Positions 1 through 41,789 of a DNA stretch of 41,789 nt are shown in pieces. The position numbers were made by a program, and so were the translations under genes. The DNA is from a virus, in IMG/VR virus record IMGVR_UViG_3300036860_000309, positions 1 through 41,789 of that record; one strand, given 5' to 3'. The notes under the pieces are model-generated. The model was not told the origin of the DNA. It did not search any database and was given only the letters and a program-made list of their open reading frames with translations. How positions within the stretch are numbered: the first letter of the stretch is position 1; each line of letters opens with the position of its first letter.

Positions 1-100
1 CTGCGCGGCGCCAACCTGCGCGTCGCCAACCTGCGCGACGCCGACCTGCGCGACGCCAACCTGCGCGGCGCCAACCTGCGCGGCGCCGACCTGTGCGACG
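1..100. repeat. Terminal overlap, copy at left end (15-bp tandem repeats)
   Basis: Bases 1-100 correspond to 41690-41789 with mismatches only at positions 13 and 23; bases 24-100 match exactly (77 nt). The unit is a 15-bp repeat encoding pentapeptides such as NLRGA. Overlaying the copies keeps the reading frame of the pentapeptide gene, whereas simply abutting the ends breaks it. This fits a circular or terminally redundant molecule whose assembly broke inside a tandem repeat. Confidence 0.85.
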
Positions 101-453
101 CCAAAAATGTCGCACTAGCCATCGCCGCGACGAGAATTCTCCCTGCCGGTAGCTTGATAGGCTGGAAGAAGGGACTGCACGATGGTACGGACGCAGCCGT
201 TGTCATCGAATTGGAGATCCCCAAGGACTCCCGACGTAGCCACGCTTTCGGGCGCAAGTGTCGCGCTGAAAAGGCCATCGTTCTCAGCATCTCAGGAGGA
301 TGCAAAAAGGCCCATAGTTTACACGACTATTCATTTACCTACGAGGTAGGACAAATCGTTCACCCGCGAGAACCATTCAGCGAGAATTGGACGGAAGAAT
401 GCGCCAGCGGAATCCATTTCTTCATCACTCGCGAGGAGGCTGCAGCCTATTAG
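1..453 (+). CDS. Pentapeptide-repeat protein, C-terminal part (gene continues from 41285)
   Basis: This is the 3' part of the gene that starts at 41285. The first 33 codons are pentapeptides (NLRGA, NLRDA, DLCDA). The repeat ends near base 101 and a globular tail of about 115 residues follows, ending in SGIHFFITREEAAAY and TAG at 451-453. The tail contains IGWKKG, a KCRAEKA stretch and TYEVG, and resembles the DUF5758-type domain that often closes phage pentapeptide proteins. Pentapeptide repeats form a right-handed quadrilateral beta-helix that can mimic DNA, but the role of phage members like this is mostly unknown. Merged with the right end it is about 285 aa, although the repeat number may be wrong because the assembly collapses here. 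Confidence 0.85.
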   Translation: MRGANLRVANLRDADLRDANLRGANLRGADLCDAKNVALAIAATRILPAGSLIGWKKGLHDGTDAAVVIELEIPKDSRRSHAFGRKCRAEKAIVLSISGGCKKAHSLHDYSFTYEVGQIVHPREPFSENWTEECASGIHFFITREEAAAY

Positions 454-5704: not shown

Positions 5705-6064
5705 ATGGAGTTGCGAGAATCTATGAATACGCCACTACAATGTTCAATTGAAGGAACCAACCTCGTGATACGCATCGGCATTGGAACGCTTGCTTGGGCG
5801 GCTAAGGAAAAGAACGGCGGACCTATTGATAACCGAGTTCGGATCGCGGATAAATCTGAACTCGCAAAGGATGTTGCAAACGAACTGATGCGCGAAGACG
5901 AACTCGGCAACATGCCGATTTCGGAACTGATCGACGATGCTATCAAGAACGCTGCTGAACATGGAAGCGTGGCATTCGCGTATCCACGCAATAGACCGAA
6001 ATCCCTCATCCAACCCCGCGCCCTCTCCCGCGCTCATGCCATATTGAAGGGAGGGCAGGAGTGA
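5705..6064 (+). CDS. Hypothetical protein, 119 aa
   Basis: Contains LVIRIGIGTLAWAAKEKNGG, an amphipathic middle (LMREDELGNMPISELIDDAI) and a basic tail. A weak GGTGGA lies upstream. ATG 5705 was chosen; ATG 5723 (MNTPLQCSIEG) is an equally plausible start. It ends overlapping the GTG of the RusA gene (GTGA). Function unknown. Confidence 0.6.
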   Translation: MELRESMNTPLQCSIEGTNLVIRIGIGTLAWAAKEKNGGPIDNRVRIADKSELAKDVANELMREDELGNMPISELIDDAIKNAAEHGSVAFAYPRNRPKSLIQPRALSRAHAILKGGQE

Positions 6065-6516
6065 CACCCATCGAATTCTTCGTCCCCGGCGTTCCTAAGC
6101 CCGCCGGAAGCAAGCGCGCGTTCTGCCTGAAGAAAGGCGGCGTGTACACGGGACGCGCCATCGTCACGGATGACTGCGAGACTTCGCGCGATTGGAAGTG
6201 CGACGTTCAGCGCGCAGCTCAGGAGAAGGCTAACGGCATTCTGTCCATGCCGCTGGCGCTTGAAATCACGTTCTACATGCCGCGGCCAAAGTCGCATTAT
6301 CGCACTGGTAAACACGCCGGAACGCTTAGGAATGACGCACCCGACTTTCACACGACGAAACCAGACGCAACCAAGCTGATTCGCGGCGTCGAGGACGCGC
6401 TTACGTCTATCATTTGGAAGGATGACAGCCAGATTGCAATGCAGCTAGTTCGGAAGCGTTACGCCGACGGCACACCTGGTGCCTCAATCCGAATCTTAGA
6501 GATTTCTAAGCCATGA
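6061..6516 (+). CDS. rusA: RusA-family Holliday junction resolvase
   Basis: A 151-aa protein starting at GTG. It has the RusA signature PGVPKPAGSKRA at residues 9-20 and the catalytic block KPDATKLIRGVEDAL followed by IWKDDSQI at about 100-125, which carries the metal-binding aspartates. RusA dimers cut four-way junctions symmetrically and resolve recombination intermediates. Length is close to the family norm. It belongs functionally with the ERF and exonuclease genes upstream. Confidence 0.88.
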   Translation: MTPIEFFVPGVPKPAGSKRAFCLKKGGVYTGRAIVTDDCETSRDWKCDVQRAAQEKANGILSMPLALEITFYMPRPKSHYRTGKHAGTLRNDAPDFHTTKPDATKLIRGVEDALTSIIWKDDSQIAMQLVRKRYADGTPGASIRILEISKP

Positions 6517-39449: not shown

Positions 39450-40043
39450 ATGAAAACACTGCAAACTACATGGACTGGCATCCGTCCTCTCGTGATGCAC
39501 AACGCCGCAATGGTCGATCCTCTGAACCCCCATGTTCGGCGGATCAAAGACATAAACTCCAAGGGCTCTAAGAAGCTCACGGACTCGGACCGAGAGGAGA
39601 TGCAGCGCCTTGAATGGGCTGGCTCTCTCTATTGGGACGAGAAGCTAGGCCTGCATATCCCCTCGGAGAACATCGAGAAGTGCATTCGCGAAGGCGCGAC
39701 GAAATCGCGACTCGGCAAGGCTGCGGAAGCTGCCTCATTCGTCACCGATCCCGTCGTTAAGCTCGACTGCGGCAAGTACCCGATGGACCTCGACAAGCTG
39801 TACGAGCTTTCCGAATACCAGTTCCGCAAGCCTGTGCGCATTCCGCCGAAGACTGGCGCGCGCATTATGAAGGTGCGGCCCGTCATCCCGACCGGCTGGA
39901 AACTGACCTTCGTCGTGGAGTTCGACGATTCGGTCATCAACTCGAAAGACATCGTCAAAGCTATGATCGACGCGGGTGCGCTGGTCGGCCTTGGCGATTG
40001 GCGTCCGAAGTTCGGGCGTTTCACCGTGGAGGTTTCGCAATGA
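39450..40043 (+). CDS. Conserved-type phage protein between two repeat arrays, 197 aa
   Basis: Starts TTWTGIRPLVMHNAAMVDPLNP and ends GALVGLGDWRPKFGRFTVEVSQ. These two words mark a phage protein type of unknown function. The closing GLGDWRPKFGRF looks like the glycine-rich loop of RAMP/Cas7-like RNA-binding folds, but this is a weak resemblance. The unusual NNGGC arrays lie directly before and after it, so it may bind or process them (inference). Confidence 0.65.
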   Translation: MKTLQTTWTGIRPLVMHNAAMVDPLNPHVRRIKDINSKGSKKLTDSDREEMQRLEWAGSLYWDEKLGLHIPSENIEKCIREGATKSRLGKAAEAASFVTDPVVKLDCGKYPMDLDKLYELSEYQFRKPVRIPPKTGARIMKVRPVIPTGWKLTFVVEFDDSVINSKDIVKAMIDAGALVGLGDWRPKFGRFTVEVSQ

Positions 40044-40069
40044 TTTGGCCTAGCTTTCTTAGGCATGTC

Positions 40070-40510
40070 CCCGCCGGGCCGGGCGCGGCAGGTCGAGGCA
40101 ATGCCGGGCTTCTCACACTACCGTCCCTCGGGGCGGTAGCAGAGAGGCCCGGTGATGCCTTGCAGGGCGAGGTATGGCACGGCAGTCCCCGGCTTTGCCG
40201 TCCGGGGCGGGGCATGGCCCGCCAATGCGGGGCATCGCTGTGCATAGCTATACACACCGCCCCGATTCGTCGGGGCGGCAGTATGGCAGTGCCCCGCTGG
40301 TCCCGGCAGTCCTCGGCTGTGCGCGGCATGGCGTGTCAAGTCCGGGCTTTACACATCGCTTCCGTTCGCGGGAGCGAAAGTAAGGCAGGGCAAGGCGTTG
40401 CGTGGCTGCGCTGGGCTCGGCTCGGCGGGGCAGTGCCCGGCCCGGCTTACCAAGGCTCTGCGGGGCATGTCTATCACACGCGCCCTAACACGGCGCGAAG
40501 CTTTCTAAAC
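40070..40510 (+). repeat. Pentanucleotide NNGGC array 2 with four hairpins
   Basis: About 60 in-phase 5-mers (consensus NNGGC) form four tracts broken by hairpins at 40108-40148, 40247-40287, 40346-40386 and 40479-40497. Within each tract the C recurs every 5 nt, with phase resetting only at hairpins. The first three hairpins share a plan: 7-bp outer stem, asymmetric ACA/CA or ACA/AA bulge, 9-bp inner stem, 4-nt loop (CTCG or TTCG). Open frames through it have biased composition and are not taken as genes. Confidence 0.8.
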
Positions 40511-40524
40511 TCATTTCCAACCTC

Positions 40525-41007
40525 ATGAACGAATCAAACGGCAATCATCAAACTGAACCAGTCAAGCTTCCGCTGCGGAAAACGTGCTTGGAGAACATGC
40601 GAGCCGCCGGAATCGCCCACGGTCAAATCTATCTGGCGGATTTCTTCGCGAAGGAACTGAGGTCCGAACCTGGCACCATGCGGTTCAAAATGGATGTTTC
40701 ATGGATTCGTCAGCAGTTACTGGACGACGGATTCTATCTCGAAGGACGACGACAAAATGGCAACTTCCTCATAGTCCCGGCTGACGCCAATCGACGCCAT
40801 GGTGCAGCGTACTCGCGCAACTCAAGCAAGCTGCTCAAGCGTGGCTATACGCTTCTAACCAATACCGACGTATCGCTGCTCTCGGAGAAAGATAGGAAAC
40901 TGCACGACGCGGAACAGGAGAAGATTGCCACACGGTTCGCGCTGAACCGTCGCTCCAAGCAGGTCTACAACGAACTGACCAAGACTAAACCTAAGCTCCT
41001 TCAATAA
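40525..41007 (+). CDS. Hypothetical basic protein, 160 aa
   Basis: Begins 15 nt after the terminal AAGCTTT of array 2. Contains RKTCLENMRAAGIAHGQIYLADFFAKEL and a DVSWIRQQLLDDGFYLEG stretch that could be a winged helix, with a strongly basic C-terminus (LNRRSKQVYNELTKTKPKLL). Likely nucleic-acid binding; no family was recognised. Confidence 0.6.
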   Translation: MNESNGNHQTEPVKLPLRKTCLENMRAAGIAHGQIYLADFFAKELRSEPGTMRFKMDVSWIRQQLLDDGFYLEGRRQNGNFLIVPADANRRHGAAYSRNSSKLLKRGYTLLTNTDVSLLSEKDRKLHDAEQEKIATRFALNRRSKQVYNELTKTKPKLLQ

Positions 41008-41284: not shown

Positions 41285-41789
41285 ATGAAAATCGAAATCA
41301 AAGACCAATGGACTGGCCGCATAATTTACAGCGGAGACCATGATTCCATCAAGGCCGCAATGGCGTCGGCGCTCAAAATGAAAGTGAACCTGTGCGACGC
41401 CAACCTGCGCGGCGCCAACCTGTGCGACGCCAACCTGCGCGGCGCCAACCTGCGCGGCGCCAACCTGTGCGACGCCAACCTGCGCGGCGCCGACCTGTGC
41501 GACGCCAACCTGCGCTGCGCCGACCTGTGCGACGCCAACCTGCGCGACGCCGACCTGCGCGACGCCAACCTGCGCGGCGCCAACCTGCGCGGCGCCGACC
41601 TGTGCGACGCCAACCTGCGCGGCGCCAACCTGTGCGACGCCAACCTGCGCGGCGCCGACCTGCGCGGCGCCGACCTGTGCGACGCCAACCTGCGCGGCGC
41701 CGACCTGCGCGGCGCCAACCTGCGCGACGCCGACCTGCGCGACGCCAACCTGCGCGGCGCCAACCTGCGCGGCGCCGACCTGTGCGACG
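41285..41789 (+). CDS. Pentapeptide-repeat protein, N-terminal part (continues at window start)
   Basis: Starts MKIEIKDQWTGRIIYSGDHDS, a 34-residue leader that precedes many phage pentapeptide proteins. About 27 tandem pentapeptides of the types NLRGA, NLCDA, DLRDA and DLCDA follow without a break to the window end. The last base, G41789, is in phase with G100 at the other end. Cys alternates with Arg at the third position in many repeats. The leader plus repeats plus the C-terminal domain at 1-453 make one gene. Confidence 0.85.
   Translation, partial: MKIEIKDQWTGRIIYSGDHDSIKAAMASALKMKVNLCDANLRGANLCDANLRGANLRGANLCDANLRGADLCDANLRCADLCDANLRDADLRDANLRGANLRGADLCDANLRGANLCDANLRGADLRGADLCDANLRGADLRGANLRDADLRDANLRGANLRGADLCD
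41690..41789. repeat. Terminal overlap, copy at right end
   Basis: Counterpart of bases 1-100 with two differences. It belongs to a longer tandem tract of 15-bp units from 41387 to the end. Because the units are so alike, the true number of repeats in the circular genome may be larger or smaller than shown. Confidence 0.85.

Follow-up and report, generated by a model that had tools for sequence, protein, structure and literature searches.

A phased pentamer array downstream of a vipr gene in a lambda-like siphophage: a VIPR locus with a guide that appears to read the ImmA/IrrE motif

What does a phage do with a long run of pentamers held in strict phase and interrupted by hairpins? The window analyzed here, a stretch of 41,789 nt (positions 1 to 41,789 of the IMG/VR virus record IMGVR_UViG_3300036860_000309), contains one such array. 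Our answer, which we hold with great confidence, is that the element is a VIPR locus carried by a lambda-like siphophage with an integrase and that it works as in the mechanism proposed below.

The initial annotation of this DNA had described NNGGC recurring every 5 nt for about 60 units in four tracts. The phase and the four tracts stand: there are 68 in-phase pentamers at 40045-40471, in tracts of 14, 22, 14 and 18 units whose limits we drew by hand following the pentamer phase. The period is visible as self-similarity at lags of 5, 10, 15 and so on to 30 nt, and this is the sole such place in the window. The unit NNGGC itself does not stand as a rule; it is the commonest form and is exact in 34 of the 68 units. 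G occupies position 3 in 43/68 units and position 4 in 53/68, and the GG is more degenerate here than in most related arrays. Position 5, by comparison, is a pyrimidine in all 68 units (the surrounding region is 50% pyrimidine), and the NN positions have a near-even composition. The array region as a whole folds (z = -7.2). Tandem Repeats Finder reported nothing at 40045-40510, and an Rfam scan of the element and 11 related loci matched no family. The features of the locus are collected in Table 1.

Table 1. Features of the vipr locus in the window.
Feature	Coordinates	Strand	Basis and remarks
vipr gene, 197 aa, RAMP (Cas7-like)	39450..40043	+	phrog_4652, PDB 36pp, AlphaFold2, Foldseek
vrRNA 1 guide tract, 14 NNGGY-type units	40045..40114	+	phase; Y at position 5 throughout
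Tail hairpin 1	40108..40148	+	ACA/CA internal loop, CTCG; -35.5 kcal/mol, z -7.5; covariation
vrRNA 2 guide tract, 22 units	40144..40253	+	phase
Tail hairpin 2	40247..40287	+	z -5.5; covariation
vrRNA 3 guide tract, 14 units	40283..40352	+	phase, decoded NN
Tail hairpin 3	40346..40386	+	z -5.5; covariation
vrRNA 4 guide tract, 18 units	40382..40471	+	phase
Tail 4, partial	40472..40510	+	ACA, 6-bp inner hairpin (40479-40497), AA; z -0.9, weak
Candidate vap (VIPR accessory) gene, 160 aa	40525..41007	+	iterated profile search

The three internal hairpins share one architecture, exactly as had been claimed: 7 bp, ACA opposite CA or AA, 9 bp and a CTCG or TTCG loop, all far more stable than shuffled sequences. 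Each outer helix is built from the array itself, its 5' arm being the final pentamer of one tract and its 3' arm the opening pentamer of the next. The claim of a fourth hairpin holds only in part, since tail 4 has no outer stem. The tails within the array differ in sequence, and pairing persists across these differences. In an alignment of eight hairpin copies from three genomes, both partners vary at 13 of 16 pairs and 99.2% of cells are paired, compared with 37-49% when the partner is slid. Compensating changes and selection on a folded RNA, both put forward in the initial annotation, are thus borne out by conserved, covarying pairing. Over all fetched loci, the hairpin plan is 25 times denser in arrays than elsewhere (141 vs 5.7 per Mb). 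Its best examples outside the window lie in two IMG/VR phage loci, L046 and L089, whose tails follow the plan of the window at each base pair and differ by compensating changes. In the window, the covarying hairpins form the tails of the vrRNAs and probably set apart the units of a precursor transcript.

Relatives of the array were retrieved by DNA pattern. Five phased GGC matched at least 120 viral contigs, and seven phased GGC matched at least 119 bacterial-genome contigs and at least 120 viral contigs. In many of these contigs the arrays extend up to 1.5 kb in the same phase with NN varying freely; over 4827 units, all 16 dinucleotides occur at NN nearly evenly. Because some bacterial matches were plain microsatellites, we counted as strong arrays those with at least 12 phased GGC pairs and 2.5 bits or more of NN entropy. 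A vipr homologue lies near 113 of 138 strong arrays and is on the same strand in 111 of these 113, the commonest array positions being 10-40 nt past vipr, about 500 nt past it or 700-1000 nt ahead of it. For viral loci only, the homologue was found in 95 of 113 strong-array loci and in 0 of 89 control loci, which were viral loci retrieved by an unrelated pattern. The loci were picked by the array alone; therefore, the linkage does not depend on the protein. The initial annotation had named many relatives with conserved pairing and the same neighbour gene as support for a new element, and this is what emerged: more than 100 viral contigs, conserved pairing and vipr as the constant neighbour. 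Exact peptide patterns of Vipr and of the 160-aa protein confirmed no relatives, because the family is too diverse for patterns this strict; the DNA patterns succeeded.

Eighteen viral strong-array loci (L003, L110, L251, L072, L091, L062 and others) show no homologue of Vipr within the stretch fetched. Some of these arrays are cut by contig ends, and others may be lone vrRNAs or have a Vipr that is too diverged for the profile to detect. Some satellites bear vrRNAs of their own, according to the VIPR preprint (PMC13142463).

The array-linked protein identifies the system. It matches phrog_4652 (function unknown; E = 1.6e-45), and by itself it matches PDB entry 36pp, 'SUSP1 Vipr protein', over residues 1-195 (E = 6.1e-33); a profile of 65 homologues reaches E = 5.5e-48 against the same entry. 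The AlphaFold2 model has a pLDDT of 95.5, and its best Foldseek matches are Csm3/Cas7 of class 1 CRISPR complexes. Its C-terminal loop has an invariant Gly and an invariant Arg. The closest relative that we found, in locus L032, is 50% identical. The defining traits given for Vipr are a small RAMP homologue with an RRM core, a G-loop and a thumb (PMC13142463), and the 36pp match, the Csm3/Cas7 fold and the invariant Gly and Arg place the window protein in this class. Since the array-linked gene matches 36pp and has the Csm3/Cas7 RAMP fold, the element is a VIPR locus. A literature search on pentamer repeats in phages found nothing, and the name came from the PDB match. The statement that no named element has this plan is now out of date, as VIPR/vrRNA arrays were described in 2026 (PMC13142463). 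Separately, a vipr gene in a record named Staphylococcus phage SA1 (GU169904.1, 91697-92263) is as similar to the window protein as the Felixounavirus copies are; this record may include enterobacterial phage sequence.

As described in the preprint of April 2026 (PMC13142463), VIPR consists of the Vipr RAMP and vrRNAs in which 9-16 YNNGG repeats precede a structured tail. There, GGY is held, pairing of NN with DNA skips one base, transcription is repressed and the system is aimed mostly at competing phages and satellites. The window array has the repeat, with a weaker GG and with 14, 22, 14 and 18 units in place of the 9-16 reported, and it has structured tails in the form of the three covarying hairpins and the partial one. 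A close known counterpart is the VIPR system of Escherichia phage SUSP1 (Suspvirus), whose Vipr (PDB 36pp) is 36% identical to that of the window over its full length. Both loci are phage-encoded and have GGY/NN repeats downstream of vipr, structured tails and a small second gene. However, the SUSP1 tail is a pseudoknot hairpin whereas that of the window is a two-helix ACA/MA hairpin, and the SUSP1 vrRNAs flank vipr and vap1 on both sides whereas all four in the window are placed after vipr and ahead of the next gene. The window differs further in its more degenerate GG and in a second gene without detectable similarity to that of SUSP1. The Vipr proteins of L046 and L089 lie at a tree distance of about 3.5 from that of the window, compared with 1.9 for SUSP1, and their tails are nevertheless like those of the window, so tail type does not follow Vipr lineage. 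The two-helix tail (7 bp, ACA/MA internal loop, 8-9 bp) is common to distant Vipr lineages and is absent from the main text of PMC13142463.

The RAMP fold is common to the window protein and class 1 CRISPR-Cas (Csm3/Cas7), and coating of an RNA with a periodic, interrupted reading of DNA is expected of both. Unlike class 1 CRISPR-Cas, the locus has no direct repeats, its guide is 2 of every 5 nt rather than contiguous, and it has one small protein. The array lacks the near-identical direct repeats and contiguous spacers of a CRISPR array, and no Cas gene was recognised among the window proteins scanned. VIPR, whose description is only months old, has been proposed as the ancestor of the CRISPR RAMPs. 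The locus is a case reached independently from raw sequence, with a tail architecture unlike that of SUSP1, and the survey of VIPR distribution made here was not protein-based.

We propose that the locus works as follows. The array and the upstream vipr gene would be carried on one transcript, from which processing would release some four vrRNAs, each about 100 nt long and made up of consecutive NN-GGY pentamers with a structured tail behind them. As the preprint and the fold imply, Vipr would coat the repeat tract with one subunit per pentamer, gripping GGY and leaving NN exposed. The NN pairs would then read double-stranded DNA by base pairing, leaving out one target base between one pair and the next; the omitted base can thus fall at codon wobble positions. 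The bound complex would repress the target gene, as reported for VIPR (PMC13142463). Some limits of the guides are soft: the first 3-4 units of vrRNA 1 are degenerate and its true 5' end may lie nearer 40060-40070, and the 22 units of vrRNA 2 may hold two overlapping, staggered guides.

Guide 3 gave a readable message. Its NN series is AT AG CC TG CC AG TC TG GC AT GT AA CG TT, which on the complementary strand, with the 1-nt skip at the codon wobble position, decodes as [NK]R[FL]T[IM]A[HQ][DE]LG[HQ]GL[IM]. This appears to be the HExxH catalytic motif of ImmA/IrrE (Peptidase_M78), spelled as RF-T-[I/M]-A-H-E-L-G-H-G; the guide would thus consist of the wobble-insensitive codons of that motif. 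The padded 14-residue peptide matched Peptidase_M78 in Pfam at E = 0.0016, a value that is optimistic because the residues were chosen among degenerate options. A 20-base gapped slice of guide 3 had an exact match in 89 viral contigs, where about 0.1 matches would be expected by chance (a rough estimate). All 89 encode RFT[IM]AHELGH in the wobble-skip frame; the best 45 were read as printed translations and the remainder follow from the exact slice match. Within two mismatches, the slice occurred five times in 59 genomes and the reversed control 0 times. A 24-base slice had no exact match in the viral contigs and none within two mismatches in 195 genomes, and the top full-length score among the contigs was 26/28; therefore, the true target is likely an immA-like gene outside these collections. 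From the decoding, we consider guide 3, with fair confidence, the one guide with a nameable target.

One 18-base (9-unit) slice each of guides 1 and 4 matched 0 viral contigs, and decoding of guides 2 and 4 did not yield a convincing peptide. Guide 1 was considered as the start of an XRE helix-turn-helix (RLSLARRG) and rejected, as Pfam returned nothing and the pattern matched nothing. No guide had a good match elsewhere in the window at skips of 0-3, which would have indicated self-targeting. A general 1-nt-skip test of 411 guides against 2.4 Mb showed no excess; this test was underpowered and not limited to likely hosts, and the likely targets are absent from that 2.4 Mb.

ImmA/IrrE proteins are anti-repressors that are widespread in prophages and integrative elements, where they act in the lysogeny switch of mobile elements. 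As they are common in such elements, the phage probably turns guide 3 on rivals. The decoded guide suggests that phages can use the skip code to target protein motifs conserved in lysogeny regulators, and a fit with this is that such regulators are the targets of another VIPR clade (PMC13142463). We rate as evenly balanced the further idea that guide 3 is aimed at a conserved protein motif and not at a single sequence, so that by passing over the wobble positions of the HExxH site it could strike many different rival prophages and integrative elements with only the encoded amino acids in common, and that the tail RNA is a module swapped between distant Vipr lineages. The guide 3 reading, like the shared two-helix tail, goes beyond the main text of PMC13142463.

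Could the array be something simpler? Low-diversity, GC-rich pentamer runs do exist in bacterial genomes and were met in the same scan, so one might see here a microsatellite expanded by slippage, with hairpins arisen by chance. However, NN is spread nearly evenly over all 16 dinucleotides and a pyrimidine is kept in all 68 units while GG varies, and the same-strand linkage to one gene family together with hairpin covariation refutes this reading; its probability is practically nil. A cis-acting DNA or RNA element that merely travels with vipr (a packaging site, an origin or a platform for an annealing protein) draws on the ERF annealing protein that the phage encodes and on a 5-nt period that could suit a cooperative binder. 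The G-quadruplexes or annealing-protein platform of the initial annotation found no support, as the linked gene encodes a protein of RAMP/Cas7 fold. We consider a cis element extremely improbable, given the linkage to a RAMP family across many unrelated phages, the published biochemistry of VIPR (PMC13142463) and a guide that reads a protein motif.

A repetitive peptide encoded by the array would seem plausible from the 176-codon open frame through it (40040-40528), which has ATGA overlaps with vipr at its start and with the next gene at its stop. Against this, any open forward frame occurs in only 29 of 69 related arrays of at least 250 nt, NNGGY composition makes few stops, and it is RNA pairing that is conserved; hence, we hold coding to be very improbable. 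The last alternative accepts VIPR and takes the match of guide 3 to ImmA/IrrE as coincidental. It gains from the residues of the Pfam test having been picked among degenerate options, from the lack of a full-length target and from the undecoded state of the other guides. It has to account for 89 exact 20-base matches where roughly 0.1 was expected, all of them encoding the motif in the wobble-skip frame, with none for the two other guides tested. We judge coincidence unlikely.

The family of the 160-aa protein encoded after the array was found by iterated profile search in the vipr-holding loci L032, L014, L059, L030, L017, L107 and L244. No similarity was detectable between this protein and the product of the SUSP1 gene after vipr. 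We regard it as a candidate vap, either of another type or strongly diverged.

Other arrays have other separators. In L057 and L044 (both minus strand), L281 (1400-1811) and L008, tRNA-like minihelices lie between array tracts; they have an acceptor-like stem and a T-arm with a TTCGA or TTCAA loop, and a full anticodon arm is absent. T-arm motifs are 15 times denser inside arrays than outside, and ARAGORN calls one tRNA each in L281 and L057. These separators suggest that RNase P or other tRNA enzymes do the processing, and tRNA goes unmentioned in the main text of PMC13142463. Further recurrent tail or separator types occur in L029, L090, L017, L006, L024, L070 and L005; examples are AAGGGTCACAGACGGTGGCAC..., AGGACTTT, GTTCA and ACCGCA, and none matched Rfam in the loci scanned.

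No DNA similarity of the window to known phages was found. A Verrucomicrobiota host was considered, as one of the best terminase matches is from an Akkermansia phage, and was set aside because the identity is just 25%. Genes for an ERF annealing protein, a YqaJ-type exonuclease and a RusA resolvase at 919-2623 and 6061-6513 form a phage recombination module. At the two ends of the window (1-104 and 41387-41789), the same 15-nt repeat encodes pentapeptide (A(N/D)LR..) repeats, and the record is probably a genome, either circular or terminally redundant, that was opened within a single pentapeptide-repeat gene.
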